Source: Sphingobacteriales bacterium (GTDB taxonomy: Bacteria; Bacteroidota; Bacteroidia; Chitinophagales; CAIOSU01). Taken from it: 64,000 nucleotides of DNA. Position numbers and translations under genes: made by a program. Below the pieces are notes generated by a model. It did not search any database. It was not told the origin of the DNA and saw nothing but the letters and a program-made list of their open reading frames with translations. The stretch covers positions 40,659 to 104,658 of the forward strand of contig JAIXOI010000039.1 in assembly GCA_027486795.1 (NCBI GenBank), read 5' to 3'. This document shows positions 7,723 to 61,275 of this stretch, piece after piece. The number at the start of each line of letters is the position of its first letter. The first letter of the stretch is position 1.

Positions 7723-9681
7723 CTACCCTTCAATTTGCTCGCCCAAATCTTCCCAGCGTTTCATGCTTTTAGCGAGTTGTTGTTTCAGGTCGTCGTGTTT
7801 TTTAACCACAGTTTTGCTCTTGGCATCGTCTTTAAACAGTTCAGGGTCTTGCATTTGGGCTACCAAAACCGCAATTTCCTTCTCTAGGCGCTCAATAGTA
7901 TCTTCTTCTTGCTTCAAGTCGTTCTTTAGCTTGCGAAGTTCCTTTTCCTGGTCCTTCTTCTGTTGGGCATCGTCTTTGGCGGCATTGTCGTTGGGGCTGC
8001 TTTTGCCAAACGCCTGTTGTTTAAGGGCTTTATCCTTGTCTTTGGTAGTCTCAAAGTCGCGAAAACTCTCCACGGCGTGGCTATCCAAAAACACTTGGAT
8101 GTCGCCATAGTGCTCCTTGATGCGCTTTTCGGTAAATTCAAAAGTCTTGTTGGTCAAGCCTTGCAAAAAGTCCCTATCGTGGCTCACCAGTATCAACGTA
8201 CCATCGTAGGCTAGCAAGGCTTCTTTCAATACCTCTTTGCTGGCAATGTCCAAGTGGTTGGTAGGCTCATCCAGAATCAAGAGGTTCACGGGCTTAAGCA
8301 GCATACGCGCCAATGCCAAACGCGATTTTTCTCCGCCCGAAAGTACTTTTACCTTCTTGTCAATCTCTTCTTCGCCAAATAAGAAAGCACCCAGCAGGCC
8401 GCGCATTTTAGCTTGGTTGGTCCACTCATGGGTAGCTTCGTCTTCAATGGTTTGCAACACGGTGCGGTTCTCGTTCAGGGTTTTTTCCTGTATCTGGGCA
8501 TAGTAGCCAATTTCCACGTTATGCCCTATTTTCAGCATGCCGTCAAAATCTGTTTCGCCGTTAATCATTTTCACCAACGTCGATTTACCCATGCCGTTTT
8601 TGCCTACAAAGGCCACCCGTTCGCCACGTACAATATCAAACATCAGGTCTTTCAAAATAACCTTATCGCCGTAGTTTTTATGGGTATGTTCGGCCCTTAG
8701 CACCACATCGCCGCTACGCGGGGCTTTAGGAAAATGGAATTGGATTGAAGAGGTATCCAACTCATCAAAATCGATGCGCTCTACCTTATCCAATAGCTTT
8801 TGTGCCGATTTGGCCTGTCCAGCTTTCGATGCCTTGGCTTTAAATCGTTCAATAAAGCGCTCCTGCTGGGCAATGTAGCGTTGTTGGTTTTTATAAGCGT
8901 TTTGCTGCTGCTCTAAGCGCTCTTCGCGTAGCTCAAAGTACTTAGTGTAGTTGGCCTTGTAATCGTATATTTTACCGAAAACGATTTCGATGGTACGGTT
9001 GGTAATGTTATCCAAAAAAGCCCTATCGTGGCTCACCATCAAAATAGCGCCAGGATAATTGATAAACACTTCCTCCAACCAAAGAATAGACTCGATATCC
9101 AAGTGATTGGTAGGCTCATCCAGCAACAGTAGGGTAGGCTTTTGCAAAATCAGTTTTGCCAGCTCTACACGCATTTGCCAACCACCGCTAAACTCGGTCA
9201 TAGGGCGCTGCATATCGGCATCGCTAAAACCAAGGCCTTTCAATATCTTTATCACTTCGCTCTCCAACTTGCCTGCACCCAAGGTGTGCACCCGTTCATG
9301 GCAATCGCTCAAGCGATTAATCATTTCCATGTACTCATCGCTCTCGTAATCTTCGCGGGTTGCCAGTTGCTCGTTTATTTCCTCAATCTCGCGCTCCATT
9401 TTCAACACTTCATCAAAAGCCGTCATAGTTTCGTCCATAATGGTTTTGGTGGAGTCGTTACTTACTTCTTGAGGTAGATAACCAATGGTTTCGCCAGGGC
9501 CGCAAGTTACACTGCCTTTGGTCGGGTTGTCGTGCCCAGCCATTATCTTCAGTAGGGTAGATTTGCCCACGCCGTTCTTGCCCACCAGACCAATACGGTC
9601 CTTTGGGTTTATTACAAAGGAAATTTCTTTGAACAGGTCGCGGCTACCGAACGTAACCGACATATTTGCCACATTAATCAT
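7723..9681 (-). CDS. ABC-F family ATP-binding protein
   Basis: A soluble tandem ATPase without membrane domains that acts on the ribosome (translation factor or antibiotic protection class). The 652 residues contain two nucleotide-binding domains. The first has Walker A 'GLVGKNGVGKSTLLK', signature 'EFSGGWQMRVELAK' and Walker B 'LLLLDEPTNHLD'. The second has 'AFVGKNGMGKSTLVK', 'VLSGGEKSRLALAR' and 'LLILDEPTNHLD'. The linker with 'RYIAQQERFIERFKAK' is the P-site tRNA interaction motif region. The C-terminus is a charged coiled coil from about residue 545. The ORF track begins at a TTG (9690); the ATG at 9681 ('MINVANMSVTFG') is the better start and lies 6 nt after a TATCTTTG element. The exact subfamily (Uup/YbiT-like) is not resolved. 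Confidence 0.94.
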   Translation of the reverse strand: MINVANMSVTFGSRDLFKEISFVINPKDRIGLVGKNGVGKSTLLKIMAGHDNPTKGSVTCGPGETIGYLPQEVSNDSTKTIMDETMTAFDEVLKMEREIEEINEQLATREDYESDEYMEMINRLSDCHERVHTLGAGKLESEVIKILKGLGFSDADMQRPMTEFSGGWQMRVELAKLILQKPTLLLLDEPTNHLDIESILWLEEVFINYPGAILMVSHDRAFLDNITNRTIEIVFGKIYDYKANYTKYFELREERLEQQQNAYKNQQRYIAQQERFIERFKAKASKAGQAKSAQKLLDKVERIDFDELDTSSIQFHFPKAPRSGDVVLRAEHTHKNYGDKVILKDLMFDIVRGERVAFVGKNGMGKSTLVKMINGETDFDGMLKIGHNVEIGYYAQIQEKTLNENRTVLQTIEDEATHEWTNQAKMRGLLGAFLFGEEEIDKKVKVLSGGEKSRLALARMLLKPVNLLILDEPTNHLDIASKEVLKEALLAYDGTLILVSHDRDFLQGLTNKTFEFTEKRIKEHYGDIQVFLDSHAVESFRDFETTKDKDKALKQQAFGKSSPNDNAAKDDAQQKKDQEKELRKLKNDLKQEEDTIERLEKEIAVLVAQMQDPELFKDDAKSKTVVKKHDDLKQQLAKSMKRWEDLGEQIEG

Positions 9682-45575: not shown

Positions 45576-45623
45576 GGTTCAGTTACATATTATTTTCGAT
45601 TACTGGGTTCGGTCATGGTTTTA

Positions 45624-45631
45624 TATCTTTG
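45624..45631 (+). promoter_or_regulatory. Candidate -7 element of the DUF262-HNH gene
   Basis: TATCTTTG 17 nt before the ATG at 45649. A TTTTCG/TTCGG stretch lies upstream at a spacing near the usual one. Confidence 0.45.
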
Positions 45632-45648
45632 GATAAATAAAGATAACC

Positions 45649-47229
45649 ATGGCTGGAAAAACAGTAAATCTTGATGCAATGATTCCACGTGAAGACTTGG
45701 AAACTGTTAGCACCACAAGTGAGGAAACTAATAAGGTGAGTGAGTTTTCTTTAAAGGATTTTGTTTCTGCAGGGTTTATTACACCAAACTTAAGAAAGCC
45801 TGATTTTCAAAGAGAAACAAATCATTGGACACCGGAGCAAATCGCATTGTTAATCGAAAGTTTTTTGGACGGAGATGTGATTCCATCAATAATTACTTGG
45901 CAGTCTACAACATCTCCTAGCATCTTTGTTATAGACGGTGGGCATAGACTTAGTGCTTTGAGAGCATGGATTGAGGATGATTATGGTGATAATATGATTT
46001 CTCTTAAGTTTTTTGGAAATGAAATAAGCAATGAACAGAAAGAGATTGCGAAAAAAACTAGAAGACTTGTTGAAAAAACCATTGGAAGATTTGAGTATTG
46101 GAATAAACTGAATCAAAACCCTAATAAACCAGATAACCTTTCACCACAAATACTTAAAAGGTTACGGAATTTTTCTACAGGTAAAATTCCAGTTCAATGG
46201 GTCTATGGTAATGCTGATAGGGCACAAGACTCATTCTTTAAAATCAATAAACAAGGAACTCCTTTAGATGATACGGAAGAATTGTTAATTAGGTATCGTA
46301 AAACATCGGTAGCAATTTCAGCTCGGGCTATAATTCGGGCAGGTAAAGGTCATAAGTATTGGTATGATTTCGAAAATGACAAAAAAAATGAAATTGAAAG
46401 ATTAGCATCAAGTATCCATAATCTACTCTTTAACCCTGAATTCAATTCACCGATAAAAAATTTGGATTTACCTCTTGCTGGAACAGCTGGGGTGAGAACT
46501 GCGTTATCACTGTTAATAGAATTTATTTTGATTTCTAATCGAAACCAACAAGGATACCCTGAGAAACTTGACAAATTATCAGAAGATAGAGTTGGAAATG
46601 AAACTATAGAATGCCTTTCTAAAGTACTCTATCTTGTCCAAAGAATGACAGGGAATGACCGCGGTAGTTTAGGCTTACACCCAGCAATATATTTCTACAG
46701 TAATTCTGGAAGATATGCTATTCCCTTATTTATGGGGATGTCCACATTATTGGCTAAAAAAATAGTAAATAATGACCCTGCTTTCTTCAAAAAGTTTACT
46801 TCTGTTCGCCGCAGATTTGAAGACTATTTAGTTGTTAATCGCTCTTTAATAGGTACAATTAGTCAACAAATCCGATCCAAAAAAAGATATCAAGTTATTG
46901 CAGACCTCTATGAATTCATAATTTTAGAGATGCTAAAAGATAAAATTCCCAATGCAGATGAAGTAGTTGAAAAAGCAGGACTAAAAGTTGATGTATTGGT
47001 TCCAAAGGCTGAATTATCGGCAATAAAATTTAGTGATGATACCAAAACAGCTATATTTTTTAAAAGCGCATTAACCTCTGCATTGCGATGTTCGGAATGT
47101 GGCGGATATCTAGATCCATCAAAATCTGTCTCTTACGATCATATTAAGAGAGTTAGGGACGGAGGAGTTGGAGATGAAAACAATGGACAAATGTTACATC
47201 CATTCTGTAATCAAGGGATAAAAAACTAA
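45649..47229 (+). CDS. DUF262-family protein with C-terminal HNH domain (defence-type nuclease)
   Basis: 526 residues. The N-terminal part is DUF262/GmrS-like with 'TNHWTPEQIALLIESFLDGDVIPSIITWQ' and the signature 'IFVIDGGHRLSALRAWI' (DGxHRxxAL, about residue 92), a ParB-like NTPase fold. The end is an HNH nuclease 'LRCSECGGYLDPSKSVSYDHIKRVRDGGVGDENNGQMLHPFCN' with CxxC, D-H and a final C-N pattern. GmrSD-type enzymes cut modified DNA; here the protein may restrict foreign or modified DNA. Base composition is AT-richer than the housekeeping genes before it. It converges on the EcoRII-like restriction gene with a 4-bp overlap, so the three genes form a defence block. Function as restriction factor is inference. 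Confidence 0.83.
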   Translation: MAGKTVNLDAMIPREDLETVSTTSEETNKVSEFSLKDFVSAGFITPNLRKPDFQRETNHWTPEQIALLIESFLDGDVIPSIITWQSTTSPSIFVIDGGHRLSALRAWIEDDYGDNMISLKFFGNEISNEQKEIAKKTRRLVEKTIGRFEYWNKLNQNPNKPDNLSPQILKRLRNFSTGKIPVQWVYGNADRAQDSFFKINKQGTPLDDTEELLIRYRKTSVAISARAIIRAGKGHKYWYDFENDKKNEIERLASSIHNLLFNPEFNSPIKNLDLPLAGTAGVRTALSLLIEFILISNRNQQGYPEKLDKLSEDRVGNETIECLSKVLYLVQRMTGNDRGSLGLHPAIYFYSNSGRYAIPLFMGMSTLLAKKIVNNDPAFFKKFTSVRRRFEDYLVVNRSLIGTISQQIRSKKRYQVIADLYEFIILEMLKDKIPNADEVVEKAGLKVDVLVPKAELSAIKFSDDTKTAIFFKSALTSALRCSECGGYLDPSKSVSYDHIKRVRDGGVGDENNGQMLHPFCNQGIKN

Positions 47230-48461
47230 TACTTCGCCTTCTTATTTCGGTCTTTTACTAGTTCTAAAAAATCTGAAACGGTTAGTATTTCTGATTTTTG
47301 CTTGTCATTATATGTTTCATGAATAGGTTTGGGTAGTACTAACTGTAGCATACTTGCACTCATTTCATCAGTTTGGTTTTCACTGATTCCGGGCTCGAGT
47401 GTGAGAAGGTGCTTTTTCTCAATTTTTGCAGCTTCTGAAAGAACCTGCCTCCATCTATCTTTACAAGACGTTTTAACGCCTAACATTGTTAACAAAGTAG
47501 GTGGAAATTTTGTATCATGGTATGCTGCCTCTGAAGGAAACAGAAAGTCTGGTTTAGAATGATTTTCTGTCCGCACTCCTTTTGAAAACTCAATAGCGTT
47601 TGCTCTAAAAATTTCTTCCAAATGATTCTCTAATGCGTGACCAGCTCTTGACTTTCTCCGATTTTGTACGCTCAATGAAAAACTTATAAACCCATCTATA
47701 TCAGCACCGTCACTATCTAAGAATCCAGCCTTTAACCTATCCTCAACTATTTGTCTTTCTAAACGCCTAAATAGTTTTTCCTCATGTGTAACCCAAGCTA
47801 TTAATGCATTATCTGGTTCCTCAATTGGATTTACACCCTTAAGCGTCTGCCTTGCAAAGGCCGAGAATTCAATTGTTTTAGGAAATGTCTTGCCAAATTC
47901 ATGTAACAAATGGTCAAGCCGCTCAGCTTCAGGCTCTTCTACTTCAATGCCTAATTCTTCCAGGATGAAGCGTACGGTAAAATCAACTTCCTTATCATCA
48001 GTGCCCAATTCTTGGGAAGTAAAATTTGTTCCTATTGATAGAGGAATTGCAAAAAGCCACAATAATTGGTTCTCCGCGGTACTTCCGGCAGAGGCAATTA
48101 TAATCATGACAGTGCCATCAGAACGCTTTGCGATAAAAAGCATGTCTCCTGGATTTGCCAAATCCATAACCTCATTATTGTAAAAATATAGACGGTATTC
48201 TGCTGACCTCAATGGGTTTCCGATTCTTGCATCATACCACGTTAAAGTTCCATCTGACGATATAGCTTCATTTTCCTCGCCAATCCATACAAATTTAGCT
48301 GGAAACTGCACTTTTTCCCCAGACCCAGTACCTAAAACATTTCTTAATTCTTTGGTTCCATTGAATTCATGTTGATGAGAGGTTTCTAAATCAGCTTCAA
48401 CTGCGCTTAGGCGCTTTGCAGCAACGGATTCAAAATATTGAGATAAATACCCTTGATTCAT
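47226..48461 (-). CDS. EcoRII-like type II restriction endonuclease
   Basis: 411 residues with the EcoRII layout: an N-terminal effector-binding domain ('TGSGEKVQFPAKFVWIGEE', 'LTWYDARIGNPLRSAEYRLYF', 'GDMLFIAKRSDGTVMIIIA') and a C-terminal catalytic domain ending 'ALENHLEEIFRANAIEFSKGVRTENHSKPDFLFPSEAAYHDTKF' with the PD...GVKTSCKDRWRQV motif (PD-(D/E)xK type, about 320-350). EcoRII cleaves before CCWGG after binding two sites; the same specificity here is plausible but unproved. The methyltransferase gene lies 44 bp upstream on the same strand. Composition is AT-rich. The C-terminus overlaps the DUF262 gene convergently by 4 nt. Confidence 0.87.
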   Translation of the reverse strand: MNQGYLSQYFESVAAKRLSAVEADLETSHQHEFNGTKELRNVLGTGSGEKVQFPAKFVWIGEENEAISSDGTLTWYDARIGNPLRSAEYRLYFYNNEVMDLANPGDMLFIAKRSDGTVMIIIASAGSTAENQLLWLFAIPLSIGTNFTSQELGTDDKEVDFTVRFILEELGIEVEEPEAERLDHLLHEFGKTFPKTIEFSAFARQTLKGVNPIEEPDNALIAWVTHEEKLFRRLERQIVEDRLKAGFLDSDGADIDGFISFSLSVQNRRKSRAGHALENHLEEIFRANAIEFSKGVRTENHSKPDFLFPSEAAYHDTKFPPTLLTMLGVKTSCKDRWRQVLSEAAKIEKKHLLTLEPGISENQTDEMSASMLQLVLPKPIHETYNDKQKSEILTVSDFLELVKDRNKKAKY

Positions 48462-48505
48462 ACAGTTATTTAAATCATTAACATATTAGTTAAGGACTAA
48501 AGTTA

Positions 48506-49576
48506 CTATAACTGTTCAACTAAATTCTCTTTCCTAACTAGTATTGCTTGCTCAATATACGGCAACATGAGTTTTGCTACTGCTTGGACAGCAGGTACAG
48601 CCACTGAATTGCCAAATTGGCGATATGCCTGCGTATCAGACACAGGGATGATAAATTTAGATTCTCCAGGGTTATCAAAACCCATTAGCCTAGAGCATTC
48701 TCGAGGAGTTAAACGTCTAGGACGATTGTCTTTTTGTTCAATCAATACTTCGGACCCATCTTTATAATATCTAGCTGATAGCGTTCTTGCCACATCCAAC
48801 GGGCCAAATAAACTATAACCAAAACCATTTCCTGCTGCCCTGTGCTTTTCTTTGTAAGCCTTTAAATATTCCCAAAGCCTTGGCGTCAAAGTATATTTTT
48901 CATTGACCTTTCCATCAATAATATAAGGTGGTTCATTTTTCTCAGTTCCGTCAGCTTTATGCAAGATAGATCCTAACATTGGTTTTTTTAATTGATTGGG
49001 GATTTCTAAATCTTTAAAACTGAAATCGGTATCATCCCTAAAACCAACTATGAATATTCGTTCCCTATGCTGTGGAACCCAGTGTTGTCCGTCTATAACA
49101 CGAAAATGTATATTGTATTTCAGTTCCTTCTCCAGGGTTTGCCGAATCACACGAAACGTATTACCCCCATCGTGACTCAATAAATTCTTAACGTTTTCTA
49201 ATAGTATAACAGCGGGTTTATGATATTCAATTATTTGAGCAAGGTCAAAAAATAAAGTACCCTGAGTCTCGCACTTAAAACCATGTAATTTGCCTAAAGA
49301 ATTCTTCTTTGATACTCCTGCAATAGAAAATGGTTGGCAAGGAAATCCCGCAAGTAGAACATCATGTTTTGGTATTTTATTAAGAGATTCTTCATCCTTA
49401 GTAAACTCCCTTATATCTCCCTCAACTTGATGGTTACTTTTAAAGTTTGCATTATAAGTGGTTTGACAAGGCTTATCCCACTCACTAGTAAATACACATT
49501 CGCCTCCTATTGAATCAAAAGCCTTTCGAAAGCCGCCAATGCCCGCGAATAAATCTATAAAACGAAACTTGCGCAT
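48506..49576 (-). CDS. DNA (cytosine-5)-methyltransferase of the EcoRII-like system
   Basis: 356 residues with all main m5C methyltransferase motifs in order: I '[15 protein letters not shown]' (7-20), IV '[11 protein letters not shown]' with catalytic Cys80, VI '[10 protein letters not shown]', VIII '[11 protein letters not shown]', and IX-X '[14 protein letters not shown]', '[16 protein letters not shown]'. It protects the host by methylating cytosine in the recognition site of the adjacent restriction enzyme. The pair M upstream of R on one strand, with 44 bp between, suggests one operon. No Vsr repair endonuclease is seen, although m5C systems often have one; mutL lies 5 kb downstream. 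Specificity is inferred from the EcoRII-like partner. Confidence 0.93.
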
Positions 49577-49671
49577 AATAATAAATTTAGGATGCCAACG
49601 GTATCAAGCGCTCAAAATACTAAAAAACCTGGTATTTGTCAAATTTTCTCATTAGTATTTCCACCAACCCC

Positions 49672-49713
49672 ACCTACCACTCCCCAAACCTCCCATCCAG
49701 CTCCCTGAAATCG
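49672..49713 (-). pseudogene. Fragment of the mutL 3' end
   Basis: On the minus strand the sequence encodes 'YDFRELDGRF' and then GEW and a stop. It matches the true mutL end 'FDFRELDGRFAAR'. At DNA level 21 identical bases (CCATCCAGCTCCCTGAAATC plus G) are followed after one mismatch by AAACCT. It lies about 100 bp upstream of the methyltransferase gene and in the same orientation as mutL. It is far too short to be functional. Confidence 0.7.
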
Positions 49714-49794: not shown

Positions 49795-51135
49795 ATGCTT
49801 GTTGAGCCAGAACAAAAGCCACTTAAAAACATGATCCCCTTTGCCGATGCCGCAAAGGTTTGGGGCAAGGTAGCCCTGTATAGTTTTGGCGGCCCTGCCG
49901 GGCAAATTGCCGTAATGCACAAGTTTTTGGTGGAAGAAAAGAAGTGGGTTACGGAAGATGATTTCCTTCATGCGCTCAATTATTGTATGCTTTTGCCCGG
50001 CCCGGAGGCCCAACAATTGGCTACCTATACCGGTTGGCTGTTGCATGGGTTTAAAGGCGGCTTGCTTGCCGGTTGCCTCTTTATTCTACCAGGCTTTCTG
50101 AGTATTTTGCTATTGAGTATTTTGTACGTATTGTTTAGCGATACGCTGCTCATTGAGGGGCTGTTTTATGGCATTAAACCCGCTATACTGGCCATTGTGG
50201 CAGGGGCAGTATTGAAAATTGGCCAAAGGGCTTTAAAAACCCAAGCCATGTACATCATTGCAGTACTGGCTTTTGTGGCTATCTTCTTTTTCAATGTTCC
50301 ATTCCCATTTATTATTCTGTTTGCTGCGTTGGTGGCCCTCATTGGCGGGCGGCTTAATGAGAAACAGTTTTACGTCATTAAAGGCCATAAGGTAGGCGAC
50401 CAACATACCAAGCCCCAGCGGCCAAGTTTGCTGGCAACCATTGGCACGGGGCTATTTTGGGGATTTTTATGGGTGCTGCCAATAGCGGCTATCCTAATGT
50501 TTGCAGGTGCCGAGAGTATTTTCTTTACCGAGGCCACCTTCTTCAGCAAAACAGCTTTAGTAACTTTCGGTGGCGCTTACTCCGTGCTGGCTTACATCTC
50601 GCAAAAAGCCGTGGAAACCTATGGGTGGCTCAAGCCTGGAGAAATGTTGGATGGCCTAGGCATGGCCGAAACTACGCCCGGCCCGCTTATACAAGTAGTA
50701 CAATTTGTAGGCTTTATGGGCGCCTACCGCTTTCCCGGTGCACTCGACCCGCTGGTAGCTGGCATTATCGGTTCAGTAGTGGTCACGTGGGTTACCTTTG
50801 TGCCCTGCTTTTTGTTCATCTTTGTCGGCGCCCCGTATATCGAATACTTTAAGGGCAACAAATCGATGAGCACAGCCCTCTCAGGCATTACAGCGGCGGT
50901 TGTAGGCGTGGTGCTCAACCTTGCCATCTGGTTCTCGTTGCATACCTTATTCAGTAGCCATAACGATTTTCAATATGGCCCACTACAACTTTCAGTTCCC
51001 AATTTCACGAGCATCGATTGGTATGCTGCTGGCATTGCCGCTTTGGCCTTTATCGTTTATTTCGGCTTTAAGCTGGATATGTTTAAAACGATTGGGGTTT
51101 GTGTATTGGTGGGTTTACTGGTAAAACTTCTATAA
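49795..51135 (+). CDS. chrA: Chromate transporter (ChrA family)
   Basis: 446 residues with two homologous CHR domains and about ten membrane helices. Domain 1 'KVALYSFGGPAGQIAVMHKFLVEEKKWVTEDDFLHALNYCMLLPGPEAQQLATYTGWLLHG', domain 2 'KTALVTFGGAYSVLAYISQKAVETYGWLKPGEMLDGLGMAETTPGPLIQVVQFVGFMGAY'. The FGG(P/A) and PGP motifs are diagnostic. It is thought to efflux chromate with protons. It sits between the mutL fragment and a large secreted protein gene; nothing else of chromate resistance is nearby. Position between the two R-M systems suggests the segment was assembled by recombination. Confidence 0.92.
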   Translation: MLVEPEQKPLKNMIPFADAAKVWGKVALYSFGGPAGQIAVMHKFLVEEKKWVTEDDFLHALNYCMLLPGPEAQQLATYTGWLLHGFKGGLLAGCLFILPGFLSILLLSILYVLFSDTLLIEGLFYGIKPAILAIVAGAVLKIGQRALKTQAMYIIAVLAFVAIFFFNVPFPFIILFAALVALIGGRLNEKQFYVIKGHKVGDQHTKPQRPSLLATIGTGLFWGFLWVLPIAAILMFAGAESIFFTEATFFSKTALVTFGGAYSVLAYISQKAVETYGWLKPGEMLDGLGMAETTPGPLIQVVQFVGFMGAYRFPGALDPLVAGIIGSVVVTWVTFVPCFLFIFVGAPYIEYFKGNKSMSTALSGITAAVVGVVLNLAIWFSLHTLFSSHNDFQYGPLQLSVPNFTSIDWYAAGIAALAFIVYFGFKLDMFKTIGVCVLVGLLVKLL

Positions 51136-51230: not shown

Positions 51231-54200
51231 TCAATCGTTCAGCCTAAGCTCGCCACCTAGCAGCAGTTTACCTGCAGTGCTATTGTAAAAACTGTTAGCT
51301 CTGGCTACTCTCGTAAGGGGTATGCGCAGCTCGCCGGTAGTTACGTTAAGGCTGCCGGCAACCAATAAGTTATCGAGTAAGGTTACATGACCGCCACTGG
51401 CTTTGTTGGCTAACACTAGGTTTTTAAAACTTTTAGTGGTAGTTGTGGTACCCGTTCCTAGGCCACTCAGTATGGTTTGATTGGCGCTGCCATTAAAGGT
51501 TACGCTGCCGTTGTTGGGTATAAAAGTGCCCAAATTCACCCAATTGCCCGAAACATTTAAGTTAAAGTTGCTAAGCAATGTAACCGAAGCGCCCGAGCCA
51601 ATATTTACGTTTTGAGCCGTATGGTTGTTATCTGTTACGGTAACGTTAGTATTGCTTACACATCGAACCGCATCGGCAAGCGATACCACAAAAATGTTGG
51701 TGGTGGTGCTTGGTAAGCTACCGGCAACACTGTACTCACTGCCGTTAAACGATAGCCAGTTGGCCGTGGTGTTCCACTGAGTGTTGGTGTTTCCGGTCCA
51801 TAAATAATCGCCAGCAGCAATAGTATTGCCATTAACACTTACAGAAGTATTAGGCTGTTGGGCATCCGTATTGGCCGTAGCTGCCGTGGTAGGGGCGGTG
51901 CAACCAGTGTTGCCCACCCTGCGCACCCAATATGCGGTGCTATCCATTGCAGTAACGGTTATGGTCTGTCCGTCGGCGCTAAGCGGATTGCTGCCCACCG
52001 AGGTACCCGTACCCCATTGAAAACTGCTGCCCGAGCCCGCGCTACCGCCGCTGGCGGTAAGCTCTATAGGGCTGCCTAGGCAAGCGGTATAATATTGGAA
52101 TGGGTTGATTACAATCTGCTGCGAGGCCCAGCGCTCCGTAATACTGGCAGTAGCTGTGCGCACGGTAGTATTACCAGCAGTTGTTTGCGTAAAAAAGGCC
52201 ATCATATTAGACGGCTCTCCGCCAGCAGTGTTGGGCGCGTCATATATTTCGGTAACGCTTACAGGAGGAGCATAGGTTGCAGCCTTTTTATTGGTGTAAA
52301 ACGCCAAAACTAGTGCGTTTGCTTGAGCACCAGATACGGAAGGTGCCGTAACGCTTGTGCTGCTAGAGGCGCTTGATTGACCATTGGCGCCCCCTATAGG
52401 ATTTTGCAGGTTGAAACCCGTAATACGCAACATACCTACCGACCACTTTGGGGTATTAGTTACTGAAAAACTGTATGCGCTTACGGCAGCATCGGTGCTG
52501 GTGGCTATACGGTAGTATGTTGCCATACCTACGTTGTTACTTTGGTCGGTGCGGGCTACCAATATCCAACCGTTAGGTGGGGTAATGGTTACGCCTGTTC
52601 CCTTCTCAAACGTGAAACCCATAAAGAGCAAATCGCCCACTTGCACGCCGGATGGTTTGTTTACCGATATGCTGTTACCAGAGCCAACATTAGTGGTAAA
52701 CGATTGTATAACCGGTGCATTTGATACCACGGTAGCAGCACTAGTAATAGCAGTAGGTGCCGTAGGTAGGGTATCAACTTCAATTATAGCACTATCAGAC
52801 TCGGTTTGGCAGCCGCTGGCTGATACCACCGCGCGCACCAAAAAGTTGTTCCAGCCGTTACTTTCTGGGTTTGCAATAGTAAGGGTGGCTCCGCTGGTGC
52901 CTGTGGCACCTATGCCACTACCAATAGCTGCCCACGCATTGACAGGCGCATTGGTGGCTTTGCGCTGCCACTGATAGCTAGGGTTGCTGGCGGATGTGCC
53001 CACGGTAAAAGTAGCCGTGCTGTTGCCGCAAACTCCTACGCTGGTGGGTTGGCTATTAATAGAAACCTGCGGTGCTGCATTGATAACCACATTTGCCGAC
53101 GGTGCCGATGGGCAGCCACTAGAAGTAGTAAGCGTGGTCGGAAAAGTTGAACTAGCTATGCCAGGCCCAAAAGCTTCAATGTTAACCTGATTACAATTTT
53201 GGGAGAAAATGTTTGCAGTGGCACAATCTGTAGTTGTAGCAAAAGGGCGGGTAGTAGTGGTAAGTGTGCCTTTGTACACCACCGTAGTGCTGGCTGCACC
53301 TACTGTTGGAGCCGGCACCCGTATGGTGTAATAGCCATTGCTTTGGCTGTTGCAAAATATAAGTGGTTGTATGCCGACATCGCCATTATAGCAAGTGTTT
53401 ATTCCAGAAATGGTAACGGTGTAATTAAACTCCACATTATAATTGTAGCCATTGGTACAAGGGTTGTCAAGTGGCACTATACTAAATGGCTCAATAACTA
53501 CCACAGCGCTATATCCGCAGCTATTTAGGGTGGCTTGGTAGCCGTAATTATAGTCGCTCACGGTGTAGCTATAGGTATTGGCACCAAGTCCAGTTATGGT
53601 AGCGCTAGTGCCACTGCCAATGGTAGTATTGCCACCTGGCAATTGAGTAATGATCCAGTTGCCCACGGTAGGCAAGCCCGACAAAGTTACGCTGCCAACT
53701 GGGTTAGTGCAGGTAGGCTGCGTAACGGTACCCACCGTAGGGGCAGTAATAGTTTTAGTAATGGATACATTGTCAAATAGTGCCGCTTGGCTGGCGGTAG
53801 TTCCTCCTTGAAAGTAAGCACCCGAAAAGCTCAGGCTACTGCCTGTATAGGTATTGTTTACCGCTGTGCCTTGCGAAACCAATGTACCTGAATTAGGACT
53901 GACAAAGGCAGTATTACCATCATTGCGTAACAATAGCTGCCAAGTATCGGTTGCAGGGGTATAAGTAACCTGAATACTCAAATATTGGGTACCAAAATCG
54001 GTAAGGCCGCTGGTGTTCGATGAAATAATGTTAGTAAGCGTACCACGTAAGCCGTTGTTATACCGCACCAAGCGCACTGGGTCTGTGGTGCCACTTTGGC
54101 CCAACACTACGGCGTAGCCAGAGCCATTACTTGCCACACTAGCATCAGTGCCCCCTAACACATAAGCTACGCCAAATGTATTGTTGGCAAAGCCACCTGG

Positions 54201-54620
54201 GTCGGTTTGGCTTTGACGCATATTAAAGCTCCATGTAATTGAGCCCGAATTGTTATTTAACACTCCCGTAAAACATGTTTGACTCGCATTGGGTATGGAT
54301 GCAAACACCCAGCCATTGGCATTGCTGGTTGCGCTGGCATCGTTGGTAAGCTCTAACCGATTGCTGTTAATGCGCGCTGCCAAATCGTTTCCGGAGCGGG
54401 ACACCGTCCAAGATGAGCTGCCGATGTTGCCCGAGGTTATAAAAGTTGCGCTGTTATTGTTTGCAAAGTCATCGGTGAAAACGCTGCTCTGTGCATTAGC
54501 CTTAATGCTAGAAACTGCGATAACAAGTAGCAGCAAGGCTTTGGTAAAATTACTGGTAAATTGAGGAACAAAAAAAGCAGGTGTGGCATGCGTTGATTTG
54601 TCCGAATTTGTTTTGGTCAT
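51231..54620 (-). CDS. Large secreted Ig-like protein without a recognisable sorting domain
   Basis: 1129 residues. A signal peptide lies after a short polar lead ('FTKALLLLVIAVSSIKANA', about 26-44). The first part resembles a concanavalin-like domain ('NGWVFASIPNASQTCFTG', 'SITWSFNMRQSQTDPGGFANNTFGVAYVL'). Ig-like and PKD-like modules follow ('GSVTLSGLPTVGNWIITQLPGG', 'FTVGTSASNPSYQWQRKATN', 'GWILVARTDQSNNVGMATYYRIA'). The end has parallel-beta-like runs ('HTAQNVNIGSGASVTLLSNFNLNVSGNWVNLG'). It stops at 'LLLGGELRLND' without the T9SS sorting domain expected of such proteins, so it may be truncated. The ORF track start is GTG; the ATG at 54620 is preferred. Confidence 0.85.
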   Translation of the reverse strand: MTKTNSDKSTHATPAFFVPQFTSNFTKALLLLVIAVSSIKANAQSSVFTDDFANNNSATFITSGNIGSSSWTVSRSGNDLAARINSNRLELTNDASATSNANGWVFASIPNASQTCFTGVLNNNSGSITWSFNMRQSQTDPGGFANNTFGVAYVLGGTDASVASNGSGYAVVLGQSGTTDPVRLVRYNNGLRGTLTNIISSNTSGLTDFGTQYLSIQVTYTPATDTWQLLLRNDGNTAFVSPNSGTLVSQGTAVNNTYTGSSLSFSGAYFQGGTTASQAALFDNVSITKTITAPTVGTVTQPTCTNPVGSVTLSGLPTVGNWIITQLPGGNTTIGSGTSATITGLGANTYSYTVSDYNYGYQATLNSCGYSAVVVIEPFSIVPLDNPCTNGYNYNVEFNYTVTISGINTCYNGDVGIQPLIFCNSQSNGYYTIRVPAPTVGAASTTVVYKGTLTTTTRPFATTTDCATANIFSQNCNQVNIEAFGPGIASSTFPTTLTTSSGCPSAPSANVVINAAPQVSINSQPTSVGVCGNSTATFTVGTSASNPSYQWQRKATNAPVNAWAAIGSGIGATGTSGATLTIANPESNGWNNFLVRAVVSASGCQTESDSAIIEVDTLPTAPTAITSAATVVSNAPVIQSFTTNVGSGNSISVNKPSGVQVGDLLFMGFTFEKGTGVTITPPNGWILVARTDQSNNVGMATYYRIATSTDAAVSAYSFSVTNTPKWSVGMLRITGFNLQNPIGGANGQSSASSSTSVTAPSVSGAQANALVLAFYTNKKAATYAPPVSVTEIYDAPNTAGGEPSNMMAFFTQTTAGNTTVRTATASITERWASQQIVINPFQYYTACLGSPIELTASGGSAGSGSSFQWGTGTSVGSNPLSADGQTITVTAMDSTAYWVRRVGNTGCTAPTTAATANTDAQQPNTSVSVNGNTIAAGDYLWTGNTNTQWNTTANWLSFNGSEYSVAGSLPSTTTNIFVVSLADAVRCVSNTNVTVTDNNHTAQNVNIGSGASVTLLSNFNLNVSGNWVNLGTFIPNNGSVTFNGSANQTILSGLGTGTTTTTKSFKNLVLANKASGGHVTLLDNLLVAGSLNVTTGELRIPLTRVARANSFYNSTAGKLLLGGELRLND

Positions 54621-54832
54621 TTGCCGTTTAAATTTAATTAACACTTGTTAATTATTAGACACATATAACCAAAGTTATCCGTGCCTAATCGAATTTGATA
54701 CGGCAATGTAGTCGCTAAGTTTCCGCTGCGCAAGTATTTTTTTGAGGTCAACCGGTGATTGGAAAAATTAACGCCCAAAACCCCTACTAATGGCATTTAA
54801 AAAATAGCGGTGGGTTAATTCTGGCAATGCAC

Positions 54833-56731
54833 TTACCGCGCCGCAAACCTGCCATCCAGCTCCCTGAAATCGAAGGTACTTATGGTTTGGCGGCCGCCGG
54901 GGGCTATGTAGGGCTGCTCGCAGGCGAAGAGCTCGTCAATGAGCGTTTCCATTTCTTTTACGGTAAGGCTTTGGCCAGCTTTAATGCTCGTTTGGCGCGC
55001 CAAGCTGCGGGCCAAGCTCTCGCGCTTGTCCAGCTTTAGCACGGCCAGGTTGTTCTTAAAATCCTCCAGCAAGCTCTCTACAATATGCTGCTCGTTGCCG
55101 CCTTTTAGGTCGGCGGGCATTCCGTGGATAACAAAATCGTGGTTGCCAAACTCCTGTATATCAAACCCCAGACCGTTTATCTCGGGCAGCACCTCGCGCA
55201 GCAGCGCCGCATCGGCCGGGGCGCACTGTATGGTGGTAGGGAAAAGCAACTGCTGGCTACCCTGTGGCTTGGCCATGTGGCGTATAATGTGCTCGTATTG
55301 TATGCGCTCGTGCGCGGCCTGTTGGTCAATCAATATAAACCCGCTGCGGATGGGCGAAATGATGTAGCGGTTGTGCAACTGCGTAGGCGTGCGGTCGGCA
55401 GGGCCCTGAAAGAGCCGCTCGGTGCCGCCCTCCACCTGTTCGTGACGTTCAAAGTCGCTCTCAATGGTTACATGGCCTTGGGCAGTTTGCTTTATGGCGG
55501 GCAGCTCGTATAGGTCTTCCCAGTTTTTGCGGTTGTTTTTCTGTAAGCTAGTTTCGCGGGCCGTGCCGTTGTTGGCAGCCGTTTCTTTAAAGCTGGCACT
55601 ATTACCTGCACTTGGCATGGTTTTAAACTGCTGCGGGTCGTCCTCGCGCGGCCATTCGCGGGGTTTGGTTTGGCTATCGTCGCCAAAGGCCTGTAGTATG
55701 TTGAACCCCTGCTCTTGGTTAAAATCCAACGACGGCGTAACGCTGTACTTGCCCAGCGCATGACGCACCGAAACCCTCACAAAACCATATACCGATCGCT
55801 CATCATCGAACTTGATTTCTTGCTTCGTGGGGTGTACGTTGATGTCGATACGGGTAGGGTCGATATCAATGTAAAGGCAGAAAAACGGGAAGTGCTCACG
55901 TGGAATCAAATCCTCGTAGTTCATAAACACCGCGTGGTTCAGGTAGTTGTTCCTTACGTAGCGGTTGTTGATGAAAAAGTACTGGTCGCCACGGGTCTTT
56001 TTGGCCGAATCGGGCTTACCAATGAAGCCATAAATTTTGATAAAATCCACCTGCTCCTCTACCGGCACCAACTTGCCATCGTAGCCCTTACCAAACATGC
56101 CCACAATGCGTTGCTTTACGTTGCCCGCCTTTAAATGGAAAAGCTCGTGCTCGTTGTGGTGCAGGCTAAAGCCCACACTGGGGTGCGCCATGGCCACGCG
56201 CTGAAACTCCTCAATGATGTGTTTCAGCTCCACCGGGTTGCTCTTCAAAAAGTTGCGCCGCGCCGGTACGTTATAAAACAGGTTTTTAATGCTTAGGCTC
56301 GTGCCATCGGGGCACTGGCAGGGCTCTTGCTGCTTCACCTCGCTGCCCTCAATGCGGATGTAAGTACCCAGCGTATCGCCGCACTGTTTGGTCTTTAGTT
56401 CTACTTGCGCCACGGCGGCAATAGATGCCAGCGCCTCGCCACGGAAACCCATGGTGCGGATGGCAAACAAGTCGTCAATTTTTTTGATTTTGCTGGTCGC
56501 GTGGCGCTCAAAGCTCATGCGGGCATCCGTTTCGCTCATGCCGCAGCCATTGTCCACCACTTGTAGCAGGGTTTTACCCGCATCGCGCACAATCAGTTGC
56601 ACCATGGTGGCACCCGCATCAATCGAATTCTCCAGTAACTCCTTCACCGCCGATGCCGGCCGCTGAATCACCTCGCCCGCCGCAATTTGGTTGGCCAAGG
56701 CATCCGGCAGTAGCTGTATGATGTCCGCCAT
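54833..56731 (-). CDS. mutL: DNA mismatch repair protein MutL
   Basis: 632 residues. It couples MutS to the nicking step of mismatch repair. The N-terminal GHKL ATPase has 'MADIIQLLPDALANQIAAGEVIQRPASAVKELLENSIDAGAT' (ATP-lid helix and E-loop), 'DNGCGM', 'RHATSKI' and 'TMGFRGEALASIA'. The C-terminal dimerisation domain includes 'LIDQQAAHERIQYEHI' (DQHAxHER-like site, about 478), which in non-E. coli MutL is part of the endonuclease metal site, then 'ACEQPYIAPGGRQTISTFDFRELDGRF'. The gene is intact and flanked by diverged pieces of its own 3' and 5' ends. It is transcribed alone on the minus strand. Confidence 0.96.
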   Translation of the reverse strand: MADIIQLLPDALANQIAAGEVIQRPASAVKELLENSIDAGATMVQLIVRDAGKTLLQVVDNGCGMSETDARMSFERHATSKIKKIDDLFAIRTMGFRGEALASIAAVAQVELKTKQCGDTLGTYIRIEGSEVKQQEPCQCPDGTSLSIKNLFYNVPARRNFLKSNPVELKHIIEEFQRVAMAHPSVGFSLHHNEHELFHLKAGNVKQRIVGMFGKGYDGKLVPVEEQVDFIKIYGFIGKPDSAKKTRGDQYFFINNRYVRNNYLNHAVFMNYEDLIPREHFPFFCLYIDIDPTRIDINVHPTKQEIKFDDERSVYGFVRVSVRHALGKYSVTPSLDFNQEQGFNILQAFGDDSQTKPREWPREDDPQQFKTMPSAGNSASFKETAANNGTARETSLQKNNRKNWEDLYELPAIKQTAQGHVTIESDFERHEQVEGGTERLFQGPADRTPTQLHNRYIISPIRSGFILIDQQAAHERIQYEHIIRHMAKPQGSQQLLFPTTIQCAPADAALLREVLPEINGLGFDIQEFGNHDFVIHGMPADLKGGNEQHIVESLLEDFKNNLAVLKLDKRESLARSLARQTSIKAGQSLTVKEMETLIDELFACEQPYIAPGGRQTISTFDFRELDGRFAAR

Positions 56732-57394
56732 TTCTTCTCTATCGCTCCGCTTTGTTTGGAGGGTGTAAAGTTAGGGTTTTTTTGTGGGGGTGGGGAGCCG
56801 TGGTTGCCTTCTCCATGCCTATAAACCATCATAGCGTATTATCATCTTAGGTTTCAAGCGTGCAAAACAAGTTGCTAGAGTGAGATTGCCTAAAAACAAA
56901 CGAAAGAGCTAAAATGAGTATGGCCAATGTTCCGTTCAGGTTTCAGACGTATACCAGCGGTATAAGAATGATGTTGCCTACAATGTTGCATCGACCGATA
57001 CAGTACAAAGGTATAAGTCGTTTTTATATTTTACAAATAATTGGAGAAGTTTTTTTATTTTTTTTGTGGCGGGATTAAAATCAGATTTTTTTCTCTCGGC
57101 ATGCCCTACGGCTATATCGCCTCGCCCGCCGCAATCTGGTTGACCAAGGCATCCGGCAAAAGCTCTATGATGTCCGCCATTTCTTCTGTGTCGCTCCGCT
57201 TTGTTTGTGTTTTTGGAGAGGTGCAAAGTTAGGGAGAGTTTGGGTGGGGTGGAGAGGTGGGCCGTTGTTCTTAAAAAGTATTAAATATCGATGAGGTATT
57301 TTCAAAGCTTAGTTGCTAGAGGTCGAGTTATAAGTAGTTTTTCCTTAAATTTATGCTTCAAATTTTAGCAGAAAACTCAATTCAATAACCAATA
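56732..57394. other. Gap between mutL and the second R-M operon
   Basis: 663 bp. It contains a diverged copy of the mutL 5' end (57112-57240) and about 340 bp of AT-rich sequence without an ORF. The right part is the upstream region of the methyltransferase operon. Confidence 0.55.
57112..57180 (-). pseudogene. Truncated duplicate of the mutL 5' end
   Basis: On the minus strand it encodes 'MADIIELLPDALVNQIAAGE' followed by AI and a stop codon, against 'MADIIQLLPDALANQIAAGE' in mutL. The similarity runs on upstream past the ATG through 'CGCTCCGCTTTGTTTG' and 'AAAGTTAGGG', so promoter and leader were copied too. The copy keeps TAACTTTG (57224-57231) where mutL itself has TAACTTTA. It is a remnant, possibly still transcribed. 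Confidence 0.82.
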
Positions 57395-58612
57395 ATGCAA
57401 TCTAAATCCATGAATTATAAAATTGAAAATCCTGCGTTACTTATAGTTGAAGAGCCACAGATGCTTCTTTTTGATAAAGAGCCACTTATACTTGAGCCCC
57501 AAACAGAAGTAACATTTGAGCAAAGGGGATATAAAGTAAATGATAAAGTCGGAACTATAATTGATAGCAAAATACAAACTCTAGGTTTCTTTTCAGGAGC
57601 AGGAGGTTTAGATATTGGTGCTCAATTAGCTGGTTCAAAAGTAATATCTAGCTTAGATTTTGACAAGGATAGCGTTGCTACTATGAAAAGCAATCCATAT
57701 TTTGACCATACTAAGCACATTCTAAAGAATATAGAAACTGTTAACTACCATGATTTTAGCGGAGTATTAAAAACTAACAATCCAGAAAAATTAATTATTG
57801 TAGGGGGCCCTCCGTGTCAACCATTTTCTAAAGCTGGATATTGGGTAACTCATGAAAATCGGTTAGGTAGTAATGACCCAAGAAATATGATTGGCCAGTA
57901 TCTACGGATAATCAACGAAGTAAAACCCGATGGGTTTGTACTGGAAAATGTTGAGAGTCTTTTACATCCAAAGAATATTCATGTTGCTGAAGCTTTAGAA
58001 GAGACTATTGATAAAATGGGATATTATTTCATCAGGTACAAAGCAAATGCAATTGATTTTGGCGTACCTCAGAAGCGAAAAAGGGTTTTTTTTATAGCTA
58101 GCAGAAAGAAAATAGTGGGAATTCCAGAAGTAACACACGGCGACCCTAGCATGTGTTTGCTCAATTCCCATATTAGACCGCACGAAAGGGTGATTGATTG
58201 GATTGGCAAATTTGATAACTCTATTTATTTTGAAAAAGAAGAACTTACATTAGGTAAAACGTATTCAGATGAATTGCGAGCGGTGCCCCCTGGAAAAAAC
58301 TATATTGCATTAACCGCAAAGGAAGGATATCCTAATCCCAAATTTGAAGCCAATAAAAGATTTTGGACATTTCTTCTAAAATTACACCCATATTATCCAT
58401 CATGGACTATTGCGGCACAGCCTGGCCCCTGGGTAGGGCCTTTCCATTGGACAAATAGAAGATTGAGAGTACCTGAAATTGCCGCAATTCAAACATTTCC
58501 TGAAGATTATAATTTTGTCGGAAATAGAAGATCGATTCAAAAGCAAATTGGCAATGCGGTTCCATCATTACTAGGAAAGGCAATTGTTAAGCACCTAATT
58601 AAAAATATTTGA
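57395..58612 (+). CDS. DNA (cytosine-5)-methyltransferase, first of a two-enzyme pair
   Basis: 405 residues. After an unusual N-terminal extension of about 60 residues come motif I 'LGFFSGAGGLDIGAQLAG' (63-80), IV 'GGPPCQPFSKAGYW' with catalytic Cys141, VI 'VLENVESLL', VIII 'PQKRKRVFFIAS' and X 'IQKQIGNAVPSLLGKAI'. It should methylate one strand or one version of the recognition site of the HNH nuclease two genes downstream. The stop codon overlaps the start of the next methyltransferase by one base (TGATG), so the genes are coupled. Composition is AT-rich. M6 at 57410 is an alternative start. Confidence 0.92.
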   Translation: MQSKSMNYKIENPALLIVEEPQMLLFDKEPLILEPQTEVTFEQRGYKVNDKVGTIIDSKIQTLGFFSGAGGLDIGAQLAGSKVISSLDFDKDSVATMKSNPYFDHTKHILKNIETVNYHDFSGVLKTNNPEKLIIVGGPPCQPFSKAGYWVTHENRLGSNDPRNMIGQYLRIINEVKPDGFVLENVESLLHPKNIHVAEALEETIDKMGYYFIRYKANAIDFGVPQKRKRVFFIASRKKIVGIPEVTHGDPSMCLLNSHIRPHERVIDWIGKFDNSIYFEKEELTLGKTYSDELRAVPPGKNYIALTAKEGYPNPKFEANKRFWTFLLKLHPYYPSWTIAAQPGPWVGPFHWTNRRLRVPEIAAIQTFPEDYNFVGNRRSIQKQIGNAVPSLLGKAIVKHLIKNI

Positions 58613-59649
58613 TGAGCCCTAAGATTGTAAGTATATATTCAGGTGCAGGTGGCATTGATTTAGGATTTCATAAAGCCGGATTTGAAGTAGTTTTTTCTTC
58701 AGACATATGGAATATTGCGTGTTCCACTTTGAAACATAACTTCCCAAATACAGATGTAGTTTGTACATCAATCGTTAATATTGACTTTAAGACCGTAAAA
58801 AATAGTCACACACATATTGATGGTCTTGTAGGGGGCCCGCCTTGCCCACCCTTCTCTAAATCGCGATTTTATCGGACAGAAAAGGATAGAGGCATGGAAG
58901 ACCAAGATGGATTTATTACAATCTCGAATTATTTCCGAGCAGTAGAAGAACTTCAGCCTACATTTTTCTTATTCGAAAATGTACATGGTTTTGTTTACAA
59001 GCCTCATAGTTCTGCTTTAGAATTTTTAGAATCTGAAGCGAAAAGGTTGAATTATAGCGTAACCTTTAAGGTAATAAACACAGCAAATTTTGGGATTCCT
59101 CAAACAAGAGAGCGCTTTATTTGCATAGGAATTAAACATGGATTAAAACCGTTTGAGTTTCCGAAAGAAACGCATGGTTCATCAATAAAACCCACAAATG
59201 ATTTGAAACCTTGGGTAACTGCTGGAGATGTACTTTCGGATATAGATATTGTTATGCCCGAAGACAAAAAAATGGAAGCTGGTAGTAAACATAAAGACCT
59301 ATTGAAATTAGTTCCTCCAGGTGACAACTATTTGTTTTTTACTGAGGAAAGGGGGTATGAAAAACCCATTTTCAAATGGCGCTCAAGATATTGGAGCTTT
59401 CTTCTGAAACTATCTCCAGAAAGGCCTTCTTGGACTATTCAAGCGAGCCATTCAAATAATATGGGGCCGTTTCACTGGAAGAATAGATTTTTGAGAATCA
59501 GTGAGATAAAAAGGTTACAGACATTTGATGATAATTACTTTTTGGAAGGGTCGTTTAAAGAACAATGGAGACAAGTGGGCAATGCAGTACCGCCACTGAT
59601 GGTTGAAATTTTAGCAAATAAAATTTATAATGATTACTTTGCGTTATGA
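58612..59649 (+). CDS. DNA (cytosine-5)-methyltransferase, second of the pair
   Basis: 345 residues. Motif I 'IVSIYSGAGGIDLGFHKAGF', IV 'GGPPCPPFSKSRFYR' (catalytic Cys at about 78; the usual PCQ reads PCP), VI 'FLFENVHGFV', VIII 'PQTRERFICIGI', X 'WRQVGNAVPPLMVEIL'. The PCP variant is found in some pairs of cytosine methyltransferases. Together with the first enzyme it probably covers the two strands of an asymmetric site. The ORF track start at 58609 is a TTG; ATG at 58612 overlaps the preceding stop. It overlaps the HNH gene by 4 nt (ATGA). Confidence 0.92.
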   Translation: MSPKIVSIYSGAGGIDLGFHKAGFEVVFSSDIWNIACSTLKHNFPNTDVVCTSIVNIDFKTVKNSHTHIDGLVGGPPCPPFSKSRFYRTEKDRGMEDQDGFITISNYFRAVEELQPTFFLFENVHGFVYKPHSSALEFLESEAKRLNYSVTFKVINTANFGIPQTRERFICIGIKHGLKPFEFPKETHGSSIKPTNDLKPWVTAGDVLSDIDIVMPEDKKMEAGSKHKDLLKLVPPGDNYLFFTEERGYEKPIFKWRSRYWSFLLKLSPERPSWTIQASHSNNMGPFHWKNRFLRISEIKRLQTFDDNYFLEGSFKEQWRQVGNAVPPLMVEILANKIYNDYFAL

Positions 59650-60641
59650 GCGTTAGAGATACTAATATTTTAGAACCTTCAGATCTTAAGTACTTACTGA
59701 TCGATAGTCTTAGACTCTATTCTGACAATGTGGTTTTCATTGATGGAAATAATCCCTATCGGTTCTCGATAAACAAAAAAACATTTTATGTTTTAATAAA
59801 AAACGTACATGAATCGGGAAAAGGGCGAAGTAATCCAGATGAATGTAGAATCCAAATTAGCAAGACACCAAACTTTAATCAAGCATTAAATTCACACCAA
59901 GATGTTATTGTGCTAGGTTACTTTGCAGATGAAAACGTATTTACAGCATGGAACCCCTATCTGCTGCGAGATAGATTCAATTTACGACAAACAGTTTCGG
60001 TTTATTCAAGATTTTCAATCCAGCAAGAAGCTAGTATATATAAAATAGCTTCTTATAGGGACAATAATGGGCAGTCTATTATTAGTTTTAAACCTGACTA
60101 TCTTGGTCTATATCTGGAGAATCTCTCTCACATACATCTTCTTTCAGACCAGGAATTAAAAAAACTGGTTGAGATATCAGACAACTTGAATGTGGAAAAT
60201 GTTCAAGGCCAAGTTATGGTTGATGAACAAGAATTTACAATAACACATACTAGATATAAGAGAGACCCTCGCTTTAAAGATATAGTACACGAAGCTTACG
60301 GTCATCGTTGTGCAATGTGCGGAATACAATTGGAGTTAATCGAAGCAGCGCATATTGTTCCACATTCACATGAGTTAGGAACAGACGAAATAAGTAACGG
60401 TTTGACTTTATGCTCTTTACACCATAAAGCGTATGACCGTTCATTAATTTATTTTGACTCTACTTTTAAAATTTTTATTAACGAAAAGAAGATGGAATAT
60501 CTCCAAAAAGTAGGTAAAGATTCTGGTTTCAGAAAATTCCAGACTCTTGGATTTGAGAGTATTCAACTTCCAGATAACTATACCTTAAGGCCAAATCCTG
60601 CAAACATCAATTTAGCTAATAAAATTCGTGGAATAATATAA
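59646..60641 (+). CDS. HNH restriction endonuclease associated with the two methyltransferases
   Basis: 331 residues. The C-terminal third holds an HNH core 'YGHRCAMCGIQLELIEAAHIVPHSHELGTDEISNGLTLCSLHHKAYDRSLI' (CxxC, H-I-V-P, N-G-L-x-L-C-x-x-H-H-x-x-x-D) near 222-272. The N-terminal 200 residues are not recognised beyond resemblance to a methylase-associated domain ('RYSINKKTFYVLIKNVHESGKGRSNPDECRIQISK'-like). It overlaps the upstream methyltransferase gene by 4 nt, so the three genes form one operon. It probably cuts unmethylated foreign DNA. Recognition site unknown. AT-rich composition points to transfer. Confidence 0.85.
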   Translation: MSVRDTNILEPSDLKYLLIDSLRLYSDNVVFIDGNNPYRFSINKKTFYVLIKNVHESGKGRSNPDECRIQISKTPNFNQALNSHQDVIVLGYFADENVFTAWNPYLLRDRFNLRQTVSVYSRFSIQQEASIYKIASYRDNNGQSIISFKPDYLGLYLENLSHIHLLSDQELKKLVEISDNLNVENVQGQVMVDEQEFTITHTRYKRDPRFKDIVHEAYGHRCAMCGIQLELIEAAHIVPHSHELGTDEISNGLTLCSLHHKAYDRSLIYFDSTFKIFINEKKMEYLQKVGKDSGFRKFQTLGFESIQLPDNYTLRPNPANINLANKIRGII

Positions 60642-60650
60642 ATATGTTCA

Positions 60651-60896
60651 TCACATTCTAATTATCTCATCACCGTGATTGATTTGCCATATGTGGAACA
60701 GAATTTCTTCATAATCTTTATCGGTGCAATTGTCCTGCTCCAATCGCTCGGCAAGCGAATAAACATAATCGTATGAAACAAGCGATTTTTCACCTTCTTC
60801 ATCTACTTCATCATCAAATGTTTCAGCCCAAGAATAAAGTTCTTCAACAATCAAATCTCTATTTTTGAGTATTTTCGTAACTTCTGCTTTTTCCAT
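60651..60896 (-). CDS. Small acidic protein of unknown function
   Basis: 81 residues, strongly acidic ('ELYSWAETFDDEVDEEGEKSLVSYDYVYSLAERLEQDNCTDKDYEEILFHIW'). No signal peptide or membrane segment. It converges on the HNH gene with a 9-bp gap and could be part of the same acquired block, for example as a regulator or inhibitor, but no family is recognised. The ATG at 60896 is preferred over the ORF start at 60920. Three alternating GACAAT/ATTGTC half sites lie 65-95 bp upstream. Confidence 0.6.
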   Translation of the reverse strand: MEKAEVTKILKNRDLIVEELYSWAETFDDEVDEEGEKSLVSYDYVYSLAERLEQDNCTDKDYEEILFHIWQINHGDEIIRM

Positions 60897-60960
60897 ATGA
60901 ATTGATAAGATGGCAAACAAATATGTGAAATTTCACCTTGTTTTTCTGCAATAGACAAAA

Positions 60961-60992
60961 GACAATTAAAAAATTGTCAAAACTTTGACAAT
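60961..60992. promoter_or_regulatory. Three alternating inverted half sites
   Basis: GACAATT-AAAA-AATTGTC followed without a gap by ATTGTCAAA-AC-TTTGACAAT. It could be an operator for the small acidic gene or a structured RNA. It lies 65 bp upstream of its ATG. Confidence 0.4.
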
Positions 60993-61104
60993 AAAATTAT
61001 TGTGAACATTGATAATCAACAACTTACACAAGTACAAAGTGTAAATACTTCACAATCAACACCTTATAGCCAGTGCAAATAAATGCCTACAACCGCTGCA
61101 AAAT

Positions 61105-61275
61105 CTCACTTCCCAGACGACACAACCCCTTTAGATAGACACAAGATATCAGACACAAGACTTGCTTCAAACCATTCAACAGATTAACCAATCAATCCCC
61201 CAAACCCTCGTCTCGCCTGAGGCGAGACGAGACAAGCCCCACCAATCCTCACTTCGTGGACGACATAACCCCCTT
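61105..61275. repeat. Direct repeats bracketing a family E palindrome
   Basis: 'CTCACTTCCCAGACGACACA' at 61105 and 'CTCACTTCGTGGACGACATA' at 61248, both followed by 'ACCCC', enclose the perfect palindrome with arms CTCGTCTCGCC / GGCGAGACGAG (61207-61231). The layout is that of a small non-coding element. Confidence 0.5.

Follow-up and report, generated by a model that had tools for sequence, protein, structure and literature searches.

Partial copies of both mutL ends lie at the borders of variable restriction-gene slots in a Sphingobacteriales bacterium and a relative

The window analyzed here, a stretch of 64,000 nucleotides from a Sphingobacteriales bacterium, carries an intact mutL gene on its minus strand. 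Genes matching restriction and methylation families lie on both sides of it, and at the inner border of each of these two groups there is a short, truncated copy of one mutL end. The genome of the window (G000) was compared with relatives in the genus (G001 to G004); two of the five genus genomes compared are broken at the locus. Functions were assigned to the slot genes by family matches only, and their action in defence is predicted on that basis. The features are the following, with positions in the window:

45576-49668, no strand: left putative defence slot; contents differ between G000 and G003, with synteny lost at 45573 and regained at 49669
45649-47229, plus strand: GmrSD_N/HNH protein (Pfam)
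47226-48461, minus strand: EcoRII-type restriction endonuclease (Pfam EcoRII-C, 4.6e-72)
48506-49576, minus strand: C5 cytosine methyltransferase (Pfam DNA_methylase, 2.2e-79)
49671-49713, minus strand: mutL 3'-end remnant, 38/43 identical to the mutL 3' end (E 3e-9); also in G003
49795-51135, plus strand: chrA (chromate transporter; Pfam Chromate_transp), between the 3' remnant and mutL; 97% amino acid identity in G003
54833-56731, minus strand: mutL, intact, 632 aa (Pfam HATPase_c_3, DNA_mis_repair, MutL_C)
56780-57115, no strand: spacer of about 350 bp from the mutL promoter to the 5' remnant, genus-type intergenic DNA; 94% in G003, absent upstream of mutL in G001
57112-57180, minus strand: 22-codon open frame inside the 5' remnant, reading MADIIELLPDALVNQIAAGEAI and then a stop; frame unconserved in G003
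57116-57244, minus strand: mutL 5'-end remnant (promoter-like box, leader and first 20-23 codons or so), 82-90% identical to 56667-56790; also in G003
57245-60961, no strand: right putative defence slot, GC 34-38%; contents differ among G000, G003 and G001, with synteny to G003 lost at 57244 and regained at 60962
57395-58612, plus strand: C5 cytosine methyltransferase 1 (Pfam DNA_methylase, 1.3e-48)
58612-59649, plus strand: C5 cytosine methyltransferase 2 (Pfam DNA_methylase, 1.9e-57), its ATG at 58612 overlapping the preceding stop
59646-60641, plus strand: MTaX1-HNH protein (Pfam MTaX1, 1.7e-26; HNH_2, 2.9e-13)
60962-61003, no strand: unique 42-bp palindrome bounding the slot on the right; a single copy in each of G000, G003 and G001, 92-98% identical

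The copy of the mutL 5' end had been noticed in a first-pass annotation, and our alignments bear out what was reported of its place and extent. Positions 57111-57207 match 56662-56758 with 90% identity over 97 ungapped nucleotides, and a gapped alignment to the mutL 5' end covers 57116-57256 (82% over 141 bp, E 3e-34). We place the copy at about 57116-57244, at an offset of 449 bp from the resident mutL 5' end. The homology does continue 5' of the copy's ATG, as had been described, through the leader and then a promoter-like box (TAACTTTG) to about 57244, and the distance from this ATG to that of the first methyltransferase is indeed 215 bp. In the peptide read from the minus strand at 57180-57112, the residues AI stand before the stop. 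In G000 both the open frame and the box are intact and oriented towards mutL, and a candidate promoter of the remnant lies at about 57225. A search of the window's genome with the copy gave no match besides mutL itself. For control, we compared 80 ends, from 40 genes of the window, with the window; partial copies of coding sequence were found for the two mutL ends only, and the remaining matches were intergenic repeats outside genes. An assembly artefact is unlikely, since G003, the separate genome of a sister species in the genus, also carries the copy.

The MutL protein of G003 is 99% identical to that of G000, and the two genomes share the copy and the spacer (605 bp at 95%; 513 bp at 94%). 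Comparing codons 1-20 position by position, we found no change by which both copies depart alike from both mutL genes: one site is altered in both copies, to different bases, and the remaining changes are private to one genome. These changes therefore arose after the split of G000 and G003, and at that split the copy was essentially identical to the resident mutL. Differences common to both copies number five in the leader, where the length also differs by 9 nt, and four past codon 20, clustered at the edge of the match. Judging from these alignments, the copy is a remnant, old and decaying, that derives from the mutL of this very lineage, and both copies have decayed since the split. The first-pass annotation had considered the copy a possible leftover of a donor with a diverged mutL; given its identity to the resident gene at the split, such a donor is unnecessary, and for codons 1-20 it is ruled out as the source. 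The intact frame and box of G000, pointing to mutL, could suggest that the copy was retained for a function, as a leader peptide or a second mutL promoter. This we find hardly credible: in G003 the ATG has become ATC and the box reads TAACTCTG, and the altered start codon together with the private changes means that the frame is not conserved. A functional short peptide or promoter was accordingly dropped, and a search of Rfam with the spacer gave no match to a known RNA at gathering score.

The spacer has partial matches (71-73%) within intergenic DNA of G001 and G004. At 56840-57060 an intergenic motif, CTTAGGTTTCAAACGTATAC...GTGAGATTGCCT, occurs in it twice in diverged form; intergenic DNA of the same two genomes also has this motif. 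It is this spacer, and not the restriction-modification (R-M) genes, that the direct repeats of the mutL 5' end enclose. This bears on the idea, put forward in the first-pass annotation, that the copy is a boundary scar, for instance a target duplication, made when the present R-M operon was acquired. The 215-bp proximity and the low GC content and rarity of the operon speak for that idea. However, of the relatives lacking the methyltransferase pair, G003 has the same copy and spacer beside other restriction genes, and no relative of the first C5 methyltransferase was found in G003. Acquisition of this R-M block therefore did not create the copy, which predates the present R-M genes; these lie, moreover, outside the repeats. 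An origin of the copy with the present operon is thus very improbable, and a strict acquisition scar is ruled out by G003, unless that genome once carried the same operon and its present genes took the operon's place. A weaker form of the idea survives: the copy marks a border beside R-M genes that seem acquired, but the junction of mutL and defence slot that it records is an older one.

R-M genes that inserted with a long target duplication are described in the passages of PMC3031569 that cite Nobusato et al. 2000 and Furuta et al. 2010. As far as those passages go, the likeness lies in long chromosomal direct repeats near restriction genes, the contents varying in close relatives. A long direct repeat flanking an insert is likewise present here, the mutL 5' end around the spacer and the 3' end around chrA. 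In contrast to the cases cited there, the R-M genes are not the insert and lie outside both repeats, with the spacer or chrA in between, and the duplication is older than the present R-M genes.

The restriction genes of the right slot stand out from their surroundings in base composition (GC 34-38% vs about 50%), and relatives of the first methyltransferase at 1e-40 were found in 2 of 398 other genomes of the order, at 35-36% identity; these genes look horizontally acquired. From its domains, the MTaX1-HNH protein is likely the restriction endonuclease of the C5 pair. An 89-aa ORF at 60651-60920, tail-to-tail with the HNH gene and matching no family, may also belong to the right cassette. In G003 the right slot is occupied by two methyltransferases, one D12 (Dam-type) and one N6/N4, along with an HTH protein of controller type and a small unassigned ORF; for a 170-aa ORF in G003, neither a solved relative nor a family was found.

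The palindrome at the right border (42-44 bp) was also located at 7447-7490 of locus L038 and 8908-8951 of locus L039. It is about 98% identical between G001 and G000/G003, while mutL DNA is 86% identical, and nothing surrounding it aligns with G001. Its sequence folds into a hairpin (z -4.1 in the G003/G001-type version), and a terminator, an operator and a recombination site are candidates for its role. Across 399 genomes of the order, the motif was found in G000, G001 and G003 only, plus one similar site in G333. None was found in viral contigs, and a palindrome-like match in contig C306 of G002 lies in coding sequence and was taken as chance. Beyond the palindrome, at 61100-61275, lie short repeats of intergenic DNA (around CACTTCGTGGACGACA and neighbours), of which the genus genomes contain dozens of copies.

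On the other side of mutL, the 3' remnant is short, with a 29-bp core and 29-43 bp in all. It lies beside the EcoRII-type island in G000 and a McrBC-like island in G003, whose left slot holds a McrBC-like pair (MrcB_N/AAA and DUF2357/PDDEXK_7). Between chrA and mutL, G000 alone has an ORF of 1137 aa (51231-54644), by appearance encoding a large secreted repeat protein; in G003 chrA adjoins mutL.

Synteny between G000 and G003 breaks at four points: 45573 (the rluB stop codon), 49669 (the 3' remnant), 57244 (the outer edge of the 5' remnant) and 60962 (the palindrome). Two of the four are thus outer edges of mutL remnants. The core common to both genomes runs 3' remnant, chrA, mutL, spacer, 5' remnant, between two restriction slots whose contents differ by species (left, the EcoRII-type set vs the McrBC-like pair; right, the C5 pair with HNH vs the Dam/N6 set). 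The remnants have the order and orientation of both ends of one minus-strand mutL, bracketing the working gene. The more distant G001 has neither the copy nor the spacer. Its single mutL 5' end is followed by an HNH gene and the palindrome, this lone HNH gene being the nearest one upstream of the mutL promoter; its outer flanks differ, and the defence gene adjoining mutL is another one. On the 3' side of mutL, G001 has ordinary genes, and its chrA and symporter genes are about 80 kb and 100 kb away from mutL; the order of genes in this neighbourhood is therefore fluid. G004 retains 57 bp of an rluB 3' end (6218-6276 of locus L040) as a remnant, followed by a ParE-type toxin gene and the mutL 3' end; polysaccharide genes lie alongside, and the contig lacks a full rluB and ends inside mutL. 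In G005, one genome of the same family outside the genus, genes that appear rhomboid-like come after mutL. At about 110 other mutL loci we found no mutL-linked R-M genes, querying only the systems seen here, and no copies of mutL ends, with a mutL-start pattern so strict that the G003 copy itself escaped it.

The locus resembles hotspots of defence-gene exchange, in which close relatives carry different restriction systems in the same slot between conserved flanks: differing genes within the same flanks were found for both slots in G000 and G003, for the right slot in G001 and for the left slot in G004 (ParE-type). It differs from such hotspots in that the borders include truncated mutL ends and a unique palindrome, and in that two slots flank one repair gene. 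Unlike an integrase-borne island with att sites, it gave no integrase or recombinase among the slot proteins scanned.

Our preferred explanation, which we hold with about even confidence, is that mutL lies between two slots of defence-gene exchange, and that intruding DNA duplicated the mutL ends, the duplicates now marking the slot borders. The ancestral order in the lineage of G000 and G003 would most likely have been rluB, defence slot, mutL, defence slot, palindrome, with both mutL ends at first abutting the slots directly. Before the split, the genus-type intergenic piece of about 350 bp would have arrived 5' of mutL, and chrA on its 3' side. Each intrusion may have left a second mutL end beyond it, as in an insertion with target duplication, of about 115-125 bp on the 5' side and about 30-43 bp on the 3' side. 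The copy at 57116-57244 would then be the 5' duplicate, without conserved function, marking the old mutL/slot junction. The outer restriction genes, different in each species, were swapped later, presumably by recombination in the shared flanks or by repeated insertion at the same borders. We read the remnants as old mutL/slot junctions because, at their positions, G001 and G004 have a mutL end next to genes of this kind. Of the steps in this explanation, target duplication is the least certain. The explanation calls for two insertions at opposite ends of the gene, where a single replacement would be more economical. Further points against it are the shortness of the 3' remnant and the four shared differences of the copy past codon 20. 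Among the few genomes compared, none has mutL abutting both slots at once, since the G004 contig ends in mutL and the 3' genes of G001 are ordinary.

The main rival is a replacement, in which the middle of the original mutL was lost and a chrA-mutL-spacer segment from elsewhere took its place between the two ends, so that a working mutL was re-acquired and the remnants are the ends of the lost gene. We regard this as unlikely, though a serious alternative. A single event would account for both remnants, which surround the chrA-mutL-spacer segment in the order and orientation described above. The divergence of mutL itself also favours it: mutL is the least diverged at synonymous sites among 68 orthologue pairs of G000 and G001 (pS 0.425; next 0.546; median 0.72), and mutL has therefore probably been exchanged between lineages of the genus. 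Between G000 and G003, mutL ranks 26th of 32 in synonymous divergence, above the median if anything. A sliding comparison within mutL gave no sharp recombination boundary, and a recombination tract inside the gene was set aside. Against replacement, the first 20 codons and leader of the remnant are nearer the resident mutL than the mutL of G001, so the donor must have been very close; and the chrA-mutL-spacer arrangement was found elsewhere in no genome, chrA of G001 lying far from mutL.

The remnants could instead be a few dozen base pairs of donor mutL brought in as arms of earlier defence cassettes that abutted mutL in the donor, which amounts to the first-pass idea set back to a previous cassette. 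Donor DNA of this kind exists, as a defence-type gene abuts a mutL end in G001 and in G004, and the rluB-end remnant borders the G004 cassette. Homology-facilitated illegitimate recombination, in which one end is homologous and the other illegitimate, is documented (PMC3240628), and it could serve insertion or replacement as well. Nevertheless, such arms seem to us clearly improbable: the common ancestor would have had to acquire cassettes with mutL arms twice, both cassettes being exchanged afterwards, and codons 1-20 show no donor-type divergence.

The locus illustrates that partial gene ends can record where defence genes were swapped around a DNA-repair gene: both mutL ends are duplicated at slot borders, and mutL itself has apparently been exchanged between species. 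Horizontal transfer of mismatch-repair genes in E. coli is said to have been described by Denamur and colleagues in 2000. The present case is alike in the unusually low synonymous divergence of mutL between two species of the genus, and differs in the flanking defence slots and the gene-end remnants. It is also conceivable, if doubtful, that mutL and its flanking defence cassettes form a unit moving between genomes of the genus. If so, linkage of R-M genes and mutL could be favoured because a genome without mutL recombines more with foreign DNA, and the defence genes gained in that state become fixed when mutL returns; repeated rounds of this would have left the remnants of mutL and rluB ends as footprints. 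Given further strains, this genus may allow a test of whether mismatch-repair and restriction loci are linked because one influences how the other turns over.
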